DNA from: Pseudomonadota bacterium
GTDB taxonomy: Bacteria; Pseudomonadota; Alphaproteobacteria; Rhizobiales; Aestuariivirgaceae
NCBI GenBank assembly: GCA_020161855.1
Contig: JAIUNJ010000002.1
Coordinates: forward strand, 536,529-600,528
Length of the DNA stretch: 64,000 nucleotides
Reading direction: 5' to 3'
The position numbers and the translations under genes are program-made. Within the stretch, counting starts at the first letter, position 1; each line of letters opens with the position of its first letter. Below the pieces are notes generated by a model. That model searched no databases, was not told the DNA's origin, and saw only the letters and a program-made list of their open reading frames with translations. This document shows, piece after piece, positions 34,650 through 50,411 of the stretch.

Positions 34650-36692
34650 TTACTGGCGCTCGAAGGCGTCCTTGATGATCTTCTGCAGGTCTTCGCGGCG
34701 ATAGGGCTTCATGATGATGTAGCCCTCGCGGAAGCGCGGTTCATCCTGATGCACCATGGCGCCCTTGGGATAGCCCGAGGTGTGGACGATCTTCAGCGCG
34801 GGGTTGAGGCTCTGCGCCGCCTGGGCCAGATCGAAGCCGTTCATGCCACCCGGCATGACGACATCCGAGAACATGAGCTCGATATCCTGCTGTTCCTGCA
34901 AGCGGGACAGCGCCTCGAAGCCATCGGCAGCCTCAACCACCTCATAGCCGAAATCCTCAAGGAAGCCCGACGCGACGGCACGCACCGCCTCCTGGTCTTC
35001 CACCACAAGGATCTTGGGGCGGCGTGCTGCGCCCTTCACAGGCTCCGCAGAAATCGGAAGCGAGGCACTGACAGGCTCAGTATCCGGCGCCGCCAGACGC
35101 TCGCCGGGCTGCATGCGCCGCGGCAGGTACATCTTGACCGAGGTGCCGTGACCGATCTCGGAGTAGATCGAAATGTGACCGCCCGACTGCTTGATGAAGC
35201 CATAGACCATCGAAAGGCCAAGGCCGGTACCCTTGCCGTTGGCCTTGGTGGTGAAGAAGGGCTGGAAGACCTTCTCCAGCAGCTCCTGCGACATGCCTGT
35301 GCCGCTGTCGGAGACCGCGACCAGGATGTAGTGGCCGGGTGCCACTTCCGGGTTCTTGGCGGCATAGTATTGGTCGAGATAGGCGGCCTGTGTTTCAATT
35401 GTCAGCTTGCCGCCTTCCGGCATGGCATCGCGGGCATTGATCGCCAGGTTGAGAATGGCACTTTCAAGCTGGGAAGGATCGATGAGCGAGCGCGGCTCCC
35501 CTTCCATGGTGTGAACCGCAAGTTCAACGTTCTCGCCGAGGCTGCGGGCGACGAGCTGTTCCATGCCCTTGACCAGGGCATTGATCTCGGTGTCCTTGGG
35601 CTCAAGCTCCTGCTTGCGGGCAAAGGCCAGCAGCTGCCGCGTGAGTTCCGAACCCTTGCGGGCGGCATCAATGGCCTCATCGAGGCGCTTCTTCGCCTTG
35701 TCATCGCCGGCCAGCTTGCCGTCGAGGAGCTGCAGGTTACCAATGATGATGGTGAGCAGATTGTTGAAGTCGTGGGCAAGGCCGCCGGTGAGCTGGCCGA
35801 TTGCTTCCATCTTCTGCGCCTTCTGCAGGCGCTGATTAATGGTCTTGCGTTCAGTGATGTCGACAGCCTGGACGATCAGTTGCTCAAGCTCGCCTTTTTC
35901 GGACTTCACCGTGGCGACAGAGACGGCACCATGCACCACCTTGTTGTCGGCGGTCATGAAGCGCAGTTCCACCTGCAACGGCGATACCTCTCCGGCGAGC
36001 AGTTGGCGCAGCCCGTTGAGGAACTGGCCGCGGTCATCCTTGTGCAGCAGGTCTTCCACGCCGAGCATCAGCGTTTCGATATCGGGACGCCCGACAAAAT
36101 TCTTGAAGGCGTCGTTGGCAAATTCGATCAGCCCCTTGGGCGAAACGATGGCCATGCCGTTGACGGCGGCAGCAAAGGCATTGCGCAGGCGCTGGTCGCC
36201 ACGCGAGGTGGCGATGGCGGCGATCTTCTGCTGGGTCACATCTTCGAGCACGCAGACAGAACGCTCAAGGCGGCCGCGATCGCCGCGATAGGCCGTCATG
36301 GAAAGGAGCACGGTGGCGAGTGAGCCATCCTTGCGCTGGATGAGCAGCTCCTCGCCGCGGCAGCTGCCGCTCAACAGATATTTCGGATAGATGTCCGTGA
36401 CCAGCCGGCTGCGCGACTCCTTGGGGAGAAATTCGCTGAAAGGACGGCCAATGATCTCGGCGGCCTCATAGCCCAATCCCTGGCACCAGGCCGCATTGGC
36501 GGCCAGGAGCCGGCCCGAACCATCCATGCAGTGCATCAGCACCGGCACCTGTGCCAGCAGAGCCTCATAGGCGCTGCCATTCTGATCGGGGAAGAACGTG
36601 CCCGAAGGAGCGCGCCGCGCCTCTGGCTTTTCAATGCGCCATGAGGCCTTGGTGTTCTCCAATTCCCATTCCCTCGCCAACAGCGCCGTCAT
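34650..36692 (-). CDS. Hybrid histidine kinase with two PAS domains and a C-terminal receiver
   Basis: A soluble sensor kinase (680 residues, no transmembrane helix). PAS 1 (about 45-155) has [23 protein letters not shown], and PAS 2 (about 165-285) has [13 protein letters not shown]. The HisKA phosphoacceptor is H307 in [11 protein letters not shown]. The ATPase domain has [20 protein letters not shown] and [14 protein letters not shown]. The receiver domain holds phospho-acceptor D610 in [10 protein letters not shown]. The H-box and layout fit the HWE-neighbouring HDFNN class of orphan hybrid kinases common in Rhizobiales. There is no adjacent response regulator. The signal is unknown, presumably cytosolic. 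Confidence 0.9.
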
Positions 36693-38876: not shown

Positions 38877-40097
38877 TCACCCCAGCGAAAGCCGTTTCAT
38901 GTTGGCTTCGATTTCCTCAATGGAACCGTTCACCGCAGCCCGGTTGGCCTTGAGTTCGATCAATTGCAGCCTGGATTGCAGCAGCGGCGCCTTGAAATCG
39001 GCATTGGACACGCTGGCGAGATTGCGGCTCAGGCGTTCAGCCTCGGCAATGGCGTCATCCAGCTTCTGCCGCTGCCCGACCAGCCCGCCCAGCGCCCGCT
39101 CATGGGCCCGCCGCAAGGTGGCCACCTGCCAGACCGTTCCGCCTTCTCCCTCGGCGATGGCGCGCAGCTTCGCCTCCTTGGCGCGCCGCTCATGCTCATA
39201 GCGCGATGGCAGGGAGGCGCCGAGCTTCCAGGAGAAGCTCACCTTGCCGCTGAAGGCGTCGTCGGCCGAGTCGAAACCGCGGGTATCCGCGTCCTCGTTC
39301 CAGCCAACCGACGCCGAAATATCCATGGCATCGAGGGTGCGCATGCGGCTGTTGATATCTTCAAGATCGGCCTCAGCCATCAGCAGTTCGTGCGTCAGCT
39401 TGCTTGCCGATGCATCCGAACCGGCATCCGCATCAAGCCGGCGCGCAGCCTGTGACGAGGCTTCCCGAGCTTCCGCAACAATCTTGTCGGCGAGCACGAG
39501 CAGCGCCGCGGCGCGCTCATGATCGATGTCGCGGTTTTTCAGAAGCGCCTGCACCTGCCGGCGCAAAGACTTGATATCGGCATCACGCCTGCCGATGGCT
39601 TCCGCTTTCGCCCTGTAACCAGCCGCTGTCAGGCCCTGCGGCGAAACGAAGATCAGCTTCTGCAAGCCATTCTCCGCCAGGTAGCGGCGGCAACGCGCTT
39701 CCGCACTTTGCTCCATCGCCGAGGCCTTCAACTGGTCGGACAGGCTGAGGCGGAGCGAGACCGATGACTTTGCTTCGTTGTTGAGGCTGCCACTCAATGT
39801 CGGCGAGCGCATGATCATCGCCTGCGCCGCCGTGTCCTCCCGCAGATAGTCGCACCACGGAGACTTCTGTGTGGTGCTGGATGCAGGAACAACGATGCTC
39901 GCTGTCTCCAGTTCATGCTCATAGAGGCCGTTTGCAGTGCTGGCAGCAGGTTGCAGTTCGCTGTCCTGCAGCGCCAGGCGGAGCCCTGTCCGCTGCACCA
40001 ATGTGCCGCTCGACGTGCAACCGGCAATCACCAGCAGCAAAGCGCCTGTCATCGCCGCAGCCTTGAACCTAGAAGAAGAATGGTGCGCGCGCGCCAT
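38877..40097 (-). CDS. Short TolC-like outer-membrane lipoprotein
   Basis: A lipoprotein of 406 residues: signal helix ending in the lipobox LVIAGC, then TSSG. The body alternates beta segments (KSSVSLRLSLSD; SASVGWN...KVSFSWKLG) with long helical coiled-coil stretches (QSAEARCRRYL...; RYEHERRAKEAKLRAI...). This two-repeat strand-helix plan is that of outer-membrane efflux proteins, but shorter than TolC. It overlaps the adaptor gene by 29 bases. Together they suggest a periplasm-spanning exporter. The assignment to the TolC fold is by pattern and should be tested structurally. Confidence 0.7.
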   Translation of the reverse strand: MARAHHSSSRFKAAAMTGALLLVIAGCTSSGTLVQRTGLRLALQDSELQPAASTANGLYEHELETASIVVPASSTTQKSPWCDYLREDTAAQAMIMRSPTLSGSLNNEAKSSVSLRLSLSDQLKASAMEQSAEARCRRYLAENGLQKLIFVSPQGLTAAGYRAKAEAIGRRDADIKSLRRQVQALLKNRDIDHERAAALLVLADKIVAEAREASSQAARRLDADAGSDASASKLTHELLMAEADLEDINSRMRTLDAMDISASVGWNEDADTRGFDSADDAFSGKVSFSWKLGASLPSRYEHERRAKEAKLRAIAEGEGGTVWQVATLRRAHERALGGLVGQRQKLDDAIAEAERLSRNLASVSNADFKAPLLQSRLQLIELKANRAAVNGSIEEIEANMKRLSLG

Positions 40098-41634
40098 GGA
40101 TGATCTCACGGGATGCGGCAGACGGGTCTGCCAGTCTGGCCTCGACAAGGAAGCCGCGGATGGGTTTGCCGAAGAAGGGATGGACGCTGGCTACCTCGCC
40201 AGGAAGAACCTGCCCGACATCGCCGGCGCGCGAACACCAGACCAGTGTCCAACTGCAGGACCACAGGCTGGAACCGGGACGGAAGCGCGCCTCATTGGCA
40301 TAGGGCACGAAGACGACATCGATCCGCTCATGGATGGCGCGGCCGAGCGCGGATGTTTCCAGAGCCGCAATCTGGCCTTTCAGCACATCGCGGGCCTTGC
40401 CGAGTTCGGCCTGGAGTTCGGCGTTGGATGACAGGCTTTCGCTGGCGTTGTCGAGGGCGGCCTTGGCATCAACACTTTGTTTTGTGAGCAGCAGAAGTTC
40501 TGTCGTGGAGCCGCTGACAGAGGAGATGGGCTTGCCGGACGCCAGGGCATCCCGCAGGGATTCCAACATGGCCAGCGTGACTTCCGCGTTGCCACCCTGA
40601 ACATGCAATGCGTCGAGATCGCTCTCGATGCCGGCGAGGCGCTGGCTGGCCTCCAGCAGGCCGAGCGTCGAGGCGTTGAACTCCTTCTTGCTGATCAGCC
40701 GCTTGTCATAAAGCCTCGCGAGATCGGCACCCATGCCACCCTTGCCGATTCCACTGTCAAGTTCCCGCTTCACGCGGGTGAGCCTCGCAATGCGGGCCTC
40801 AAGAGCCTTGCCTTCGCGCCCGATCCTGTCGATCTCCTTGCCGACAGTGCTCGCCGCATAGGTCACGAGAACTTCGGCATCGGCCTTCTCGCGCTCCGCC
40901 AACACACGCTCGGCACGCGCCTGGGTCAGGCGCTGTTCCGTCTGGCTCAGGGCGACGCTGAGTTCGGTCAGATCGCGCTCCGCCTTGCTGACGAGTTCAT
41001 GGCCGCGCGCAAGTGTCATCGGAGCCCCCCAGCCCGACGACAGAAGGAAGAAGCCAATCAACAGGCCGTAAAAGACAAAGGCCGAGAAAAGTGCGGCCAG
41101 CGCAACGAAGGCCGCACGCTTGTAGAGCAGCGACATGAGTTTCATGCCACTGCCTGACAGGCGCTTGAGAAGGTTGCCGGGTATCTGCGAGGTTGCTTCG
41201 GCCACCGACCCATGATCCTGCGGCGGACGGAAATGCTTCGGCTTTTCATTGAGACCGAGCGCCCGCAGAAACTGGCCTTCTCGCAATGGTGCCGCAAGGA
41301 CGCGCGCAACGCCTGGCACCGCCAGAGAGGAACTCACGTCACTGCTTTCGCAGATCACCACAAGACCAGTCTCCGTGCCAAGATCGGCCGCCAGTGGCAG
41401 CAGCAACTTCAACGCGCCGCCGCCGCTGCGCAGGTCGATCACGACACTGTCAAACTGCGATCGCTTGAGTTGGGCAATGGCATCCGAGGCGCGGGATTCA
41501 TAAGCAATATCGATGCGGCCGAGATGCTGGGCCAGGAAGTGACAGATCTCGTCAGCGCCGTGACCGACGTAGAGAACCCTGCGGGCCCCCATCGGCAACG
41601 TTCGGGCCTCGCCATGCTTTCGAATGATACCCAT
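40069..41634 (-). CDS. Pseudo-receiver / transmembrane / HlyD-like periplasmic adaptor
   Basis: A 521-residue fusion. Residues about 18-127 look like a CheY-type receiver (RRVLYVGHGADE, FDSVVIDLRSGG with D67, VARVLAAPLREGQF), but the N-terminal acidic pair is replaced by GHG and the conserved Lys by Ala at 115, so it is probably not phosphorylated in the normal way. A single transmembrane helix spans about 174-199. A long coiled coil follows (about 210-440), then a beta-rich end (PGEVASVHPFFGKPIRGFLVEARL) as in HlyD/Alg44-type adaptors. The ATG overlaps the stop of the glycosyltransferase gene (ATGA). I infer a periplasmic conduit whose cytosolic domain senses or scaffolds the synthase. Confidence 0.75.
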   Translation of the reverse strand: MGIIRKHGEARTLPMGARRVLYVGHGADEICHFLAQHLGRIDIAYESRASDAIAQLKRSQFDSVVIDLRSGGGALKLLLPLAADLGTETGLVVICESSDVSSSLAVPGVARVLAAPLREGQFLRALGLNEKPKHFRPPQDHGSVAEATSQIPGNLLKRLSGSGMKLMSLLYKRAAFVALAALFSAFVFYGLLIGFFLLSSGWGAPMTLARGHELVSKAERDLTELSVALSQTEQRLTQARAERVLAEREKADAEVLVTYAASTVGKEIDRIGREGKALEARIARLTRVKRELDSGIGKGGMGADLARLYDKRLISKKEFNASTLGLLEASQRLAGIESDLDALHVQGGNAEVTLAMLESLRDALASGKPISSVSGSTTELLLLTKQSVDAKAALDNASESLSSNAELQAELGKARDVLKGQIAALETSALGRAIHERIDVVFVPYANEARFRPGSSLWSCSWTLVWCSRAGDVGQVLPGEVASVHPFFGKPIRGFLVEARLADPSAASREIIHGARAPFFF

Positions 41635-42926
41635 CAGGACACGGCCTCCGCGGTTTGGGCATCAGGCTGGCGCTTCCGTTGCGGCCCGCGCGTCTCCCAC
41701 GATGTTGTGCCAAGTGTCGCCAGCGCCAGCGGCGTGGTGATGAGGTACATCACGGGAAAGACAAAGGCCATGGAGAGGAACCAAACGCCAGATGTGCGGG
41801 CCATCTCCGGCAGCTTGTGTTTGCGCAGCTCATAGGCGGCCGCAAAGACCGTCACCAACAAGGCATGCTCCATCATGGGAATGACAAAGCCGAGGCGCGC
41901 CACCTTTCCCGCCAGCATCAGCGGATAGAAGAACAGCAGCATGGCCATCGACATGTAGTGAACCAGAACCAAAGGGTGAAAGCGCGCAAGGAAGGGAATG
42001 GCGGTGATGAAATCGATGATGTTCGAGCGCCGCCAGCGCAGCTGCTGGCTGAAATAGTTCTGCAAGGAGGCGGGCGCCTTGGTGAAGCACACGGCCTCGA
42101 AACACAGTCTCGTTCTGTAGCCGCGCTCGACCAGCTTGCGCGTCAGGAAGCGGTCCTCCCCGTATTTCACTTCATCGCCGAGAAAACTGCGCCGCTCGAT
42201 ATCTCGGTCCACGGCCAGAAGAGCGGAGCGGCGATAGAGCGTGAGACATCCAGACAGGCACATGACGTGGCTGAAAGTATTCTCGAGATTTTTCAGGAAC
42301 TGGTAGCCGATCCAGTATTTTACGGCCTGCATGCGCGTGAGCCAGTTCTGGTCTGCGTTCGACACAAAAACACAGCCACCCATGGCATCGGCGCCGGAGC
42401 CCAACAGATGGCGCACCAGCGTGCGCAAGGCACCGTGATCGACAATGACATCGGAGTCGACTGAAAGAATGAGATCGGCGCGGCTCTGCAGCACGGCATT
42501 CTTGATGCCAAGGCGCTTGCCCATGTTCTGCTCGTTGCGGAAGACCTTCATCCAGCCATAGCTAGCGGCCACAGTCTGGAGGTGCTCGCCCGTGTCGTCT
42601 GTCGAGACGTCATCAACAAAGAGTACCTGAAGCCGGTCGCGCGGATAGTCCAGCGCATCGAAGGACTCGGCGGTCCGGAGAATGCTGGCACCTTCATTGT
42701 AGACGGGAACAACGATGGCCACCGTGGGCCAGACAAGCGGATCTTCGCCAAAGGAATCTCGGGTGCGGCGGTCCGACAGGCGGAGCAGGCTGCCCAACAC
42801 ATAGCGGTTTGCAAACACGACAAGGACGAGCAAACCGAACAGGTACTCTAGCGCTACCAAAGACAACATACGCAACACACAAACGTGGGCCCCATCCATA
42901 GGGCCAGCGCTCTGGTTAGCACCCAA
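41634..42926 (-). CDS. Membrane processive glycosyltransferase, family 2 (hyaluronan synthase/NodC-like)
   Basis: A 430-residue synthase with an N-terminal helix (about 22-45), a cytosolic GT2 domain and three or four C-terminal helices (about 308-400). All processive GT2 residues are present: D105-D106, D157-S-D159, the catalytic-base region GED 256-258, and QQLRW (Q294, R297, W298). SGCLTLYRRSAL and GEDRFLTRKLVERGY are like NodC and HasA. Such enzymes polymerise a UDP-sugar and pass the chain through the membrane. First gene of the adaptor/OMF operon. Internal ATGs at 42899 and 42869 are alternative starts, and none has a convincing ribosome-binding site. Confidence 0.85.
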   Translation of the reverse strand: MGANQSAGPMDGAHVCVLRMLSLVALEYLFGLLVLVVFANRYVLGSLLRLSDRRTRDSFGEDPLVWPTVAIVVPVYNEGASILRTAESFDALDYPRDRLQVLFVDDVSTDDTGEHLQTVAASYGWMKVFRNEQNMGKRLGIKNAVLQSRADLILSVDSDVIVDHGALRTLVRHLLGSGADAMGGCVFVSNADQNWLTRMQAVKYWIGYQFLKNLENTFSHVMCLSGCLTLYRRSALLAVDRDIERRSFLGDEVKYGEDRFLTRKLVERGYRTRLCFEAVCFTKAPASLQNYFSQQLRWRRSNIIDFITAIPFLARFHPLVLVHYMSMAMLLFFYPLMLAGKVARLGFVIPMMEHALLVTVFAAAYELRKHKLPEMARTSGVWFLSMAFVFPVMYLITTPLALATLGTTSWETRGPQRKRQPDAQTAEAVS

Positions 42927-43085
42927 TGCTTAGCCCAGTCTTAAGAGGGTCTTTCGCGGACAGCCTGAAATCTCAGGGATGCGGCAAGAATTGATTAACC
43001 TTTCGGCGCCGTTTACCACGCCGGTTAAGCGCTTTTGCATCCAGGTGATGTTTCTTCAAGCAACTTCAATGCTGGGGAGCATGTT

Positions 43086-44474
43086 ATGGGCGTTCAAGCG
43101 AATATCGCGCCTCCTGCCGAACGGGCTGGAGAGGCACAGTTGCAATCAATCCGTCTGGTGACGGCTGAGCCGCCGGGGTTTCCTGCGCCGGCGACGGCGC
43201 GCGTTGCCGTGATCGGGCTTGGCTATGTCGGTCTGCCACTCACCCTTGGCTTTGCCAAGGGATCGCCTGCCATCGGCTTTGAAATCAATGCCCAGAAGGT
43301 AAGCGAGCTCGAACAGGGCTTCGACATGACCGGCGAAGTGTCGGGCGTGGACCTGAAATCTGCAGCCGTCGCCTTCACCACAAATCCGGCCATGCTCGCG
43401 GCAGCCGATGTCATCATCGTCTGCGTGCCGACGCCGGTGAACAGCCACAACAGGCCGGACTACGGCCCTCTGGTTGCGGCTTCACGCACCATCGGCACAC
43501 ATATGAAGCGCGGCGCGGTTGTCGTATTTGAAAGCACCGTCGATCCGGGCACAACCGAAGATCGCTGCCTGCCGGTGATCGAGGCTCATTCCGGCATGAA
43601 GCTCGGCCTCGACTTCCATCTCGGTTACTCGCCCGAGCGCATCAACCCGGCGGACCCGACGCGCAAGCTCGCCGACATCAAGAAGATCGTGGCGGGATCG
43701 ACGCCGGCCTGTACGGACTTCCTTGAAGCCCTCTATGGCCGCGTTATCAAGGCGGGGCTCTTCAAAGCCGCTTCCATTCGCGTGGCAGAAGCTGCAAAGA
43801 TTCTGGAAAACACCCAGCGCGACATCAATATCGCCCTGATGAATCAGATGATGATGCTGTTCGACAAGATGGGCATTCGCTCGTCCGACGTCATTTCAGC
43901 GGCGGGTTCCAAATGGAACTTCCATCACTATCGCCCCGGACTGGTGGGCGGCCACTGCATTGCCGTCGACCCCTACTATCTTGTCGATGCCGGGCGTCGT
44001 CACGGCCTCTCGATGGAGCTTCTGTCTTCGGCGCGGCAGGTGAACGAGCAGACGCCGCATTTCCTCGTCGAGAAACTCGAGGAACTCATGCCACCTGCGC
44101 GACATGGTCTTCACTGCAAGAAGGTTCTGGTGCTAGGCCGCAGCTTCAAGGAAGACTGCCCGGACACGCGTAATTCAAAAGCCTTTCCGTTGATGGATGC
44201 GCTGTGGATGCGGGGGGCGAATGTCTTCAACTTCGATCCCATCGCCTATGACGATCATTTCGAGGGCGGGCGCGGGGCCAAGCTCATTGATGACCCAGGA
44301 GCCGAAGGGCCTTACGACGCCGTGATCGTGACGCTGGCCCATGGCTGCTTCCGTGAACAATTTGATGCCGACGCGCTGAAGGCGCTTGCCCACAAGCATG
44401 CACCGCTCATCGACCTGCGCGGCAACTTCGAAAGCGCCGCGGTCACGGACTGGTTCAACTACTGGCGGCCCTGA
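43086..44474 (+). CDS. Nucleotide-sugar dehydrogenase (TviB/WbpA-type, UDP-HexNAc or UDP-hexose 6-dehydrogenase)
   Basis: Oxidises the C6 of a UDP-sugar to a uronic acid with NAD. The protein has 462 residues, with the Rossmann motif GLGYVG (residues 44-49), VPTPVN, the STVDPGTTE loop, GYSPERINPAD and catalytic Cys 291 in LVGGHCIAVDPYYL. The last two motifs and KWNF before them are typical of the UDP-N-acetylhexosamine (TviB/WbpO/WbpA) branch rather than UDP-glucose dehydrogenase proper. GGGGAG lies 7 bases before the ATG. Divergent from the glycosyltransferase operon across 159 bases, so it presumably supplies its precursor. Exact sugar not determined. Confidence 0.88.
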   Translation: MGVQANIAPPAERAGEAQLQSIRLVTAEPPGFPAPATARVAVIGLGYVGLPLTLGFAKGSPAIGFEINAQKVSELEQGFDMTGEVSGVDLKSAAVAFTTNPAMLAAADVIIVCVPTPVNSHNRPDYGPLVAASRTIGTHMKRGAVVVFESTVDPGTTEDRCLPVIEAHSGMKLGLDFHLGYSPERINPADPTRKLADIKKIVAGSTPACTDFLEALYGRVIKAGLFKAASIRVAEAAKILENTQRDINIALMNQMMMLFDKMGIRSSDVISAAGSKWNFHHYRPGLVGGHCIAVDPYYLVDAGRRHGLSMELLSSARQVNEQTPHFLVEKLEELMPPARHGLHCKKVLVLGRSFKEDCPDTRNSKAFPLMDALWMRGANVFNFDPIAYDDHFEGGRGAKLIDDPGAEGPYDAVIVTLAHGCFREQFDADALKALAHKHAPLIDLRGNFESAAVTDWFNYWRP

Positions 44475-48855: not shown

Positions 48856-49007
48856 CGCCGAAACAGTCCAAAACTGATGCCGATCGTCGCGGTTTTAACG
48901 AAGGTGAACAAAGCCGTTCGATTTTGATTCAAATATAACTCTACTTCCTGACTTGATCTTTCCGAGTTCCCGCTATGCGTGTCTCCAACAAATCGGTGAG
49001 GCGACAC

Positions 49008-50411
49008 ATGCGCAACTTGAAACAAATGTTCTTCGGCAAGAGCAATGACAGCGGAAACACCGCCATCATCTTCGGCCTTTGCCTCACTGGCATCTGCGTC
49101 GCCGCCGGCGCGGCCGTTGACTATAATCGTCTGTTGCAGCAACGCACTGCCGCCTATGCCCTGGCCGACGCCGCTGCACTCGCAGCCGCCAGTTCTTCCG
49201 AAACAACGCAAAAGGGCATGCAGGCCCTGGCTTCGAACTTTGTGTCGAAGAACAAGGACCTCTACGGCCTGATCAGCGTCGAAAAGGAAAGCTATGTTTT
49301 CGACGGCACGACGGCCCGCATGACAGTCAAGCTGGACGGCACTGTGCCGACGTCTCTCATGGCGATCACCGGCATTGGCACAATGACATACGAAGCAACT
49401 TCCGTTGCAGAAAAGGGTGCCGTTCCACCCATCGAGCTGGTGATGGCCCTCGATACGACGGGGTCCATGAGCGGCAGCAAGATTACCGCCCTCAAGACCG
49501 CCGCCGATAACATGGTGACGGCAATCCTGAAAAACCCACAGGCCAAAGTCGGCATCGTACCGTTCTCGAATTATGTGAACATCGGTGTTTCGCGGCGCAA
49601 CGAACCGTCTTTCGACGTGCCTGCAGACTACACGCAGGATGCGCAGTCCTGCTCGACCACCTATCCCGATGCAAAGAACTGCAAGACGGTGAAGACACCA
49701 ACCACCTGCTACAATGACGGCGTACCCTATGCCTGCACGTCTTCAACGACGACCTGCGACTCCTGGGGCAATCCGGTCAAGACCTGCAAGACGGTAACGA
49801 ACAGCTACACTTTCCGTGGTTGCGTCGGTTCGCGCAAGGAAGCCTACCGCAATGTCATCAGCCAGCCGTCAGAACGCTATCCCGGCTTCCTGAATGTCAA
49901 TTGCGCAGCGGAAATCCTTGACCTCACCGACAACGTCACCACGGCAAAAGCCAAGGTGAAGGCCCTGACCGCTACTGGCGAAACCTATCTTCCGGGCGGC
50001 CTCACCTGGGGCTGGAACATGCTGAACCCCGCCGCACCACTGACCTCGGCCAAGCCGACAGCTGAACTGAGCAAGGTGGGTGGCATGAAGGCCCTGGTGT
50101 TCATGACCGACGGTGCCAACACCCTTGTTCCCAACAACAAGAACGCCTCGACGCATGTGAGCAGCTCTTCGACCTACAAGTCGATCGACTACTCGAACAC
50201 CCTGACGGCCCAGCTCTGCGAGAACATCAAGAAGGACAACATCACGGTCTATACCATCCAGTTCGACGTGGTGGACTCCTCGCTCAAGAAGCTTCTCACC
50301 GACTGCGCTTCCGAGCCAGTCAAGAGCTACCAGGCCGCAAACGCCAGTGAACTTGTCTCAGTCTTCGACAACATCGTCGCGGATCTCTCCCAGGTCCGTC
50401 TCGTGAAGTGA
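49008..50411 (+). CDS. TadG/TadE-like VWA-domain pseudopilus-type envelope protein
   Basis: A protein of 467 residues. The N-terminal TadE-like helix (SGNTAIIFGLCLTGICVAAGAAVDYNRLLQQR) is followed by a von Willebrand A domain with an incomplete MIDAS (LDTTGSMSGS), T-loop TGETYLPGGLTWG and MTDGAN. A cysteine-rich insert (about residues 220-280, with two CKTV copies and eight cysteines) interrupts the VWA domain. TadG proteins act with tight-adherence pili, but no tad genes are nearby. ATG 49008 has GGTGAGG 8 bases upstream, and ATG 48975 is the longer alternative. Confidence 0.82.
   Translation: MRNLKQMFFGKSNDSGNTAIIFGLCLTGICVAAGAAVDYNRLLQQRTAAYALADAAALAAASSSETTQKGMQALASNFVSKNKDLYGLISVEKESYVFDGTTARMTVKLDGTVPTSLMAITGIGTMTYEATSVAEKGAVPPIELVMALDTTGSMSGSKITALKTAADNMVTAILKNPQAKVGIVPFSNYVNIGVSRRNEPSFDVPADYTQDAQSCSTTYPDAKNCKTVKTPTTCYNDGVPYACTSSTTTCDSWGNPVKTCKTVTNSYTFRGCVGSRKEAYRNVISQPSERYPGFLNVNCAAEILDLTDNVTTAKAKVKALTATGETYLPGGLTWGWNMLNPAAPLTSAKPTAELSKVGGMKALVFMTDGANTLVPNNKNASTHVSSSSTYKSIDYSNTLTAQLCENIKKDNITVYTIQFDVVDSSLKKLLTDCASEPVKSYQAANASELVSVFDNIVADLSQVRLVK

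Follow-up and report, generated by a model that had tools for sequence, protein, structure and literature searches.

Known synthase-dependent exopolysaccharide systems are mostly switched by cyclic di-GMP (c-di-GMP), which acts through PilZ, GGDEF-like or similar domains. In the alginate system, AlgD is the dehydrogenase and AlgK the lipoprotein, a TPR protein adjoining the AlgE porin. Alg44 combines a cytoplasmic domain, one transmembrane (TM) segment and a periplasmic fusion domain, and it contacts the family-2 glycosyltransferase (GT2) (PMC8461298). Further precedents are BgsA/BgsB and APS (PMC7902896). Here we analyze a four-gene locus in a 64,000-nt stretch of DNA, referred to as the window, from an alphaproteobacterium of the Aestuariivirgaceae (Rhizobiales; assembly GCA_020161855.1, contig JAIUNJ010000002.1, positions 536,529 to 600,528 of the forward strand). 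Its genes specify a nucleotide-sugar dehydrogenase, a GT2, an adaptor with a receiver-like N terminus and a TolC-like lipoprotein. We consider it quite probable that the four constitute a synthase-dependent glycan synthesis and export system. Computation shows the gene set, the homologies of its products, the receiver ancestry and degeneration of the adaptor N terminus, and that the four genes are conserved as a set.

A conserved four-gene locus

Three of the genes form an overlapping run on the minus strand, with the dehydrogenase gene divergent, an arrangement that the original prediction had described and that is present in the window. The GT2 gene (41634..42869, minus; open reading frame [ORF] 41634-42926, conserved start Met20) overlaps by 1 nt the gene for the 521-residue adaptor (ADP; 40069..41634, minus). 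This in turn overlaps the gene for the 406-residue outer-membrane lipoprotein (OMP; 38877..40097, minus; ORF to 40148, conserved start Met18). The nucleotide-sugar 6-dehydrogenase gene, UGD, lies at 43086..44474 on the plus strand (ORF 43035-44474, conserved start Met18). The conserved Met residues suggest that translation of the lipoprotein begins at 40097, that of the GT2 at 42869 and that of UGD at 43086. With starts set at the conserved Met, the adaptor and lipoprotein genes share 29 nt (40069..40097, minus), as they do in 14 of 16 loci including the window; the overlap is 32 nt in the other two.

All four genes occur in one order in 16 of the 17 untruncated alphaproteobacterial loci that have the adaptor. 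The complete loci are the window; L029, L031, L032, L034-L041, L043 and L044; and L130 and L131, with L129 as the exception. This count includes L037, in which UGD, the adaptor and OMP are in pieces, and leaves out six loci whose contigs end inside the operon (L028, L030, L033, L042, L045 and L132) as well as L027 of genome G033, which holds a receiver fragment alone. Complete loci span the window's genus, genus g29 of its family and Rhizobiaceae-group records. The expectation that the genes would be conserved together in relatives is thus borne out.

A receiver-like domain at the adaptor N terminus

The pseudo-receiver domain is placed at about residues 18 to 130 of the adaptor (41245..41583, minus) from profile comparison, a PDB match, residue conservation and a register check. 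A receiver profile, built from 30 receivers of the window's own genome that PF00072 had selected independently of the adaptor (of 40 PF00072 matches, the 30 reported as loci), aligned by hhalign to adaptor residues 10 to 140 at 94.6% probability with a score of 46.0, whereas five control regions gave at most 0.7% and 14.1. When the adaptor-family profile was compared with the PDB, the HupR1 receiver ranked first (E=2.4e-5), followed by designed TIM barrels, other receivers and CpaE (4n0p, E=0.021). For the TIM-barrel matches no stretch passes on its own, and coiled-coil proteins rank below CpaE. The predicted receiver-like domain is therefore upheld, the CheY fold being judged by sequence alone.

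Domains drawn from other genomes by the adaptor profile are Response_reg in 30 of 31 cases. As these rows (alignment A8) were retrieved through the adaptor profile, the count tells merely what they are, and the unbiased test is the comparison with own-genome receivers. For A8, 35 loci were inspected, seven from the order search and 28 from the phylum search, and four were dropped: L078 was short, and in L049, L077 and L082 the listed stretch lay outside the receiver region, though the search had given L049 and L077 a receiver-region match.

Residue conservation points to degeneration of the active site. In register with the 40 receiver matches, G24 of the window faces D/E in 27 of 30 letters, H25 faces D in 28 of 32, D67 faces D in all 40, A115 faces K in 36 of 37 and P116 faces P in 36 of 37. 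Across the family, D67 (codon 41434-41436), G24 and P116 are each kept in all 16 rows; 15 of the 16 lack an acidic residue at position 25, and every row has A, V, E or S at position 115. The receiver catalytic set is therefore incomplete throughout, as the phospho-acceptor Asp is kept and the first acid and the Lys are lost in 16 of 16. By these comparisons the adaptor N terminus is a receiver homologue, and the domain is a pseudo-receiver with a retained Asp.

Related domains also occur as separate proteins. In four genomes of genus g28, stand-alone pseudo-receiver proteins of 382 to 396 residues (L133:7329-8519, L134:7476-8648, L135:1862-3010 and L136:6289-7437) are kin of the adaptor N terminus and have a hydrophobic stretch taken for a TM segment; none of the four operon genes was found in the stretches read around them.

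The adaptor body

The strongest hydrophobic segment of the adaptor covers residues 175 to 193 (Kyte-Doolittle 2.41), in agreement with the predicted single TM helix (about residues 170 to 197; 41044..41127, minus). A weaker segment at residues 77 to 95 (1.63) lies inside the receiver-like domain. From its sequence character and from weak coiled-coil PDB matches of the profiles, residues of about 205 to 430 (40345..41022, minus) would form a long periplasmic helical, probably coiled-coil, region. The small C-terminal module (residues 431 to 521; 40072..40344, minus) has the pattern FVPYxN...C...C...HPFFGK..RG. Its cysteines, C460 and C467, are present in all 17 alphaproteobacterial rows (alignment A5) and also in 10 of 10 rows of a mixed alignment, A9.

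No Pfam family matched the adaptor above its cut-off. The HlyD-like beta end that had been proposed was not confirmed: no HlyD or lipoyl Pfam domain was matched in the adaptors, and a profile of the adaptor body shows no similarity to BgsB. We accordingly reject HlyD-family membership and, with a profile comparison of 1.1%, direct kinship with BgsB. Membership of the Alg44 family is likewise rejected, the adaptors having no PilZ in Pfam scans and a receiver-like N terminus instead.

The TolC-like lipoprotein

A lipobox is present in all 17 alphaproteobacterial lipoprotein rows (IAGC in the window, with Cys27). The AlphaFold2 model has a mean predicted local distance difference test (pLDDT) of 78.9 and a predicted template-modeling score of 0.67, with residues 1 to 76 and 271 to 279 below pLDDT 50. 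The order of helices (H) and strands (E), read by eye from the DSSP string of the model, is H80-97, E100-105, E111-118, H119-170, H172-187, H193-218, H231-256, E258-267, E281-290, H292-295, H297-316, H321-361 and H366-402. We take this to be the order of the TolC protomer plan. With strands at 100 to 118 and 258 to 290 and long helices, the predicted model fits the TolC-type duplicated helix and hairpin order. Aligned with each other, the halves of the protein score weakly (18.3%), with the two hairpins in register. By hhalign, the lipoprotein matched a set of OEP proteins at 55.2%, with four controls at or below 0.2%; the set comprises 17 proteins from 30 loci, as many of the remaining loci cover the second half of a protein already in it. 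A PDB sequence search with the lipoprotein returned nothing useful. Taken together, element order and profile match lend moderate support to the proposed TolC likeness.

The enzymes and the probable product

The GT2 has Pfam domains PF13641/PF00535, and the motifs DSD, GEDR and QQxRW are found in all 22 GT2s examined, the window's included. Hydropathy indicates one hydrophobic segment at the N-terminal end and three to four at the C-terminal end, so that the protein combines the DxD, GED and QxxRW motifs of a processive GT2 with predicted TM segments. Its best NCBIfam model is NodC (TIGR04242) and its best PDB match is hyaluronan synthase HAS1 (8smm, E=2.3e-25), which fits the NodC/HAS-like assignment first given to it. 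At 167.7 bits against a cut-off of 550, membership of NodC itself is rejected, and of the 23 NCBIfam models that the protein matched it reached the cut-off of none. By BLAST, the window GT2 is 34% identical to that of L090 (E=1.7e-63), 30% to the Paraburkholderia GT2 (1.7e-62) and 30% to NodC (2.6e-37), E-values that come from small databases of different size. In the GT2 tree, the GT2s of five related loci (below) form a clade (support 100/100), 14 alphaproteobacterial rows group together (91/92, not starred), and NodC stands apart.

The dehydrogenase scores 354.5 bits with TIGR03026, above the cut-off of 189.8. Its nearest equivalog is TviB (346.5 bits, cut-off 592), the best equivalog by 137 bits. 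Among PDB entries, the UDP-ManNAcA dehydrogenase 4r16 (178 bits) and Cap5O (177) outscore the UDP-glucose dehydrogenase 3vtf (110). By these scores UGD appears nearer to TviB and the UDP-ManNAcA/Cap5O dehydrogenases than to UDP-glucose dehydrogenases. As UGD is nearest to UDP-HexNAc dehydrogenases and the GT2 nearest to NodC and HAS, a glycan containing an amino-uronate is a reasonable, and the better, guess, though the scores do not fix the substrate.

Receiver-free related clusters

Five related loci that we take for betaproteobacterial, L059 (on a Paraburkholderia plasmid), L090 and L137-L139, each have UGD, a GT2, an adaptor and an OMP-like gene. The order GT2-ADP-OMP-UGD is colinear in L090, L137, L138 and L139 (4/4), whereas the Paraburkholderia plasmid (L059:3150-8875) reads EAL, ADP, OMP, UGD, GH16, GT2. 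All five adaptors lack the receiver, and their matches begin at about the TM segment: profile matches run from 167 to 530 in Paraburkholderia and from 165-173 to 530-531 in L137-L139, and the BLAST match of L090 begins at residue 158. Their OMP genes were assigned by place and mutual likeness (Paraburkholderia versus L090, 26%, E=6.5e-8), and no lipobox was seen in the four OMP starts read. The GT2 of L138, the sole one of this group scanned, is nearer to PgaC than to NodC (144 versus 121 bits). The GH16 match is marginal (22.4 bits, cut-off 22), and the gene sits between UGD and GT2; together with the EAL gene it suggests c-di-GMP control and a glycan hydrolase in Paraburkholderia.

The original prediction held that a receiver fold here replaces PilZ. 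The position of the domain agrees with this. As five related non-alphaproteobacterial adaptors have no cytoplasmic domain, however, the receiver may be an addition and not a swap.

Distribution and possible loss of the operon

Among 61 genomes searched (own, same genus and same order), the adaptor was found in 13, all among the 37 genomes of the window's genus; one of the 13, G033, holds merely a receiver fragment. A survey of 69 genomes of the family found a full or near-full adaptor, pieces counted, in 16, namely 12 of the genus, three of g29 and one orphan in g28. Whereas a single-sequence adaptor scan of genome contigs gave no match, an adaptor-family profile search gave 18 loci. Every one of them comes from a metagenome-assembled genome, and many of the records bear the name Hyphomicrobiales or Rhizobiaceae. 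Eleven of these are genus loci already known and seven are Rhizobiaceae or Rhizobiaceae-group; these seven adaptors show 29 to 33% identity, except for a fragment with 63% over 43 residues.

Wider searches gave strong adaptor matches in three of 397 genomes of the order (all in the window's genus; weak in seven) and, among 398 genomes of the phylum, in the own genome and G617 (weak in 59). In G617's family, four of 200 genomes have strong matches, G617 among them, and the 369 genomes of its class yielded G617 itself and one weak match. Because the UGD and GT2 of G617 are 56% and 51% identical to those of Paraburkholderia, G617 and its kin are taken for betaproteobacteria. No adaptor match was found by tblastn against plasmids. 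Weak matches are common (E 9.8e-8 to 1e-3 in the order and phylum searches, with others in the family survey) and were largely not inspected singly, and the genome searches scored few candidates per genome (three in order and phylum, five in G617's class), so that distant members may escape. As far as these searches reach, the system is both rare and patchy in its distribution.

In the genus, a hydantoinase gene and a hybrid kinase gene often lie 3' of the operon; surroundings differ elsewhere, and neither gene was detected in the loci of the Rhizobiaceae group or in L130 and L131. In the window the hybrid histidine kinase (34650-36692, downstream of the operon) has PAS, HisKA, HATPase_c and Response_reg domains. 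As read from translations, L038 has indolepyruvate-oxidoreductase-like and xanthine-dehydrogenase-like neighbors, and a 478-residue ORF at 48975-50411 of the window resembles Tad-type pilus proteins and includes a von Willebrand-like stretch, DTTGSMSG.

The hydantoinase gene is also present in 24 of 25 genus genomes that lack a full adaptor. In 19 of these, L027 among them, the stretch upstream of the hydantoinase was read, and four hold operon remnants beside it: lipoprotein fragments in G009, G004 and G023 and the receiver fragment in G033 (L176:8738-9481, L178:1191-1874, L180:9062-9712 and L027:3091-3633). Such remnants fit repeated loss of the operon at one site.

Proposed mechanism and alternatives

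In the system that we propose, UGD would oxidize a UDP-hexose, probably a UDP-HexNAc, to the uronate in the cytoplasm, and the GT2 would polymerize the uronate sugar, alone or alternating with another UDP-sugar, and thread the chain across the inner membrane in the manner of HAS and BcsA. The adaptor would sit beside the GT2 and cross the inner membrane once, its helical region and two-cysteine module reaching the TolC-like outer-membrane lipoprotein, so that GT2, adaptor and lipoprotein would form a single conduit. The degenerate receiver would be cytoplasmic and offer a docking or regulatory surface to the GT2 or a partner; it probably does not go through the usual cycle of phosphorylation. 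We infer complex formation, topology, polymer chemistry, the role of the receiver and the joint working of the four genes.

Several observations weigh against this proposal. The orphan adaptor of L129 (genome G775, genus g28) has no GT2, UGD or OMP in the 16 kb read, and G033 retains a receiver fragment alone. Plain Pfam scans of 11 adaptors, with E up to 0.1, gave no Response_reg match, and the receiver domain must accordingly have diverged far. The adaptor body has no relationship to HlyD or BgsB that Pfam or profile comparison detects. OEP profile support for the lipoprotein stops at 55.2%, with no Pfam OEP match, and the Paraburkholderia OMP is weakly like the alphaproteobacterial lipoprotein (hhalign 20.7%, E=0.0011). 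Nor does the GT2 tree settle how the two synthase groups join. The orphan itself (L129:7519-9282, 587 residues) combines a receiver-like part with the C-terminal module.

What the receiver does is less sure than the system itself. In the Tad pilus, the pseudo-receiver of CpaE/TadZ is regarded as a polar-targeting scaffold, and the adaptor domain could similarly be a static scaffold or targeting domain that holds the exporter at the cell pole for a unipolar adhesin and carries no signal. We regard this as possible though doubtful. That all 16 rows have lost the first acid and the Lys agrees with it, as do the presence of CpaE among the PDB matches and the degenerate receiver within BcsE, which regulates cellulose secretion and brings partners to the membrane (PMC7439463). 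However, CpaE is not the top match, and D67 is kept in every row despite drift of the domain, which a pure scaffold need not do. A more specific suggestion, which we offer tentatively and think rather unlikely, is that the Asp-keeping receiver, without normal phospho-chemistry, gates synthesis and export through a binding partner or a small ligand lodged where the active site once was, and not through c-di-GMP; the receiver-free form would then be an ungated ancestor or separately controlled, as by the EAL neighbor in Paraburkholderia.

The kept D67 would also suit a functional phospho-receiver to which the downstream hybrid histidine kinase passes phosphate, with a phosphorelay gating the exporter, and a kinase homologue lies near the operon in seven of 11 genus loci besides the window, three of the other four contigs ending early. 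Loss of the first Mg-binding acid and the Lys in all 16 rows argues the other way. Moreover, the Rhizobiaceae-group loci, L130, L131 and L025 (which has about 4.6 kb downstream) yielded no homologue of the kinase, and in G033, which lacks the operon, the kinase likewise lies next to the hydantoinase. Phosphorylation by this neighbor is improbable, and we reject it as the main model. An alternative of another kind concerns the product, which might be a short Nod-factor-like oligosaccharide, with adaptor and lipoprotein as a small-molecule efflux conduit. NodC is a processive-type GT2 that makes short chains, so that the GT2 motifs alone do not exclude a short product, and NodC is the best NCBIfam model of the window GT2, albeit below its cut-off. 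Yet the L138 GT2 is nearer to PgaC than to NodC, and we know of no Nod gene set with a dehydrogenase gene beside the GT2. A short product seems improbable, and a polymer exporter remains our preferred reading.

Comparison with known systems

We found no description of this system in a search of an open-access collection, which leaves subscription papers mostly outside. AlgK is a TPR protein, whereas the lipoprotein here is TolC-like. The alginate Alg8/Alg44 system of Pseudomonas aeruginosa is close in plan, with a dehydrogenase, a GT2, a one-TM adaptor with cytoplasmic and periplasmic parts (for the Alg44 layout, PMC8461298) and an outer-membrane lipoprotein. Alg44 carries PilZ where the present adaptor has a degenerate receiver, and it is set apart by layout, not sequence.

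The BgsA/BgsB mixed-linkage glucan system of Sinorhizobium meliloti likewise pairs a GT2 with a membrane-fusion partner (PMC7902896). Here the putative BgsB (L056:12431-13669) is not detectably related to the adaptor, and BgsA, of 669 residues, falls on a far branch of the GT2 tree; BgsB, BgsA and the APS stretch on pSymB were picked by layout, the record being unannotated. In BLAST comparisons with the window GT2, BgsA gave E=7.8e-15 and the putative APS GT2 E=0.007, and no match to the adaptor or lipoprotein was found in the pSymB stretches examined. Bcs cellulose systems also have a degenerate receiver, in BcsE, within a polysaccharide secretion system (PMC7439463); BcsE, which has a GGDEF-like domain, stands as a protein of its own, whereas the receiver here is fused to the adaptor.

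NodC, hyaluronan synthase and PgaC share motifs and domain with the GT2 but define families whose cut-offs it does not reach. The clusters of L059, L090 and L137-L139 have the GT2, adaptor body and UGD in common with the window and differ in having no receiver, a weakly similar OMP-like gene and another gene order, with EAL and GH16 added in Paraburkholderia. In the conserved four-gene system a decayed receiver is fused directly to the export line, and the receiver-free relatives offer a natural comparison; non-enzymatic receiver control of a glycosyltransferase therefore becomes testable. The system also points to an uncharacterized, probably uronate-bearing, glycan. Set beside these known systems, it is a variant of synthase-dependent exopolysaccharide export that is new in its receiver-bearing adaptor.

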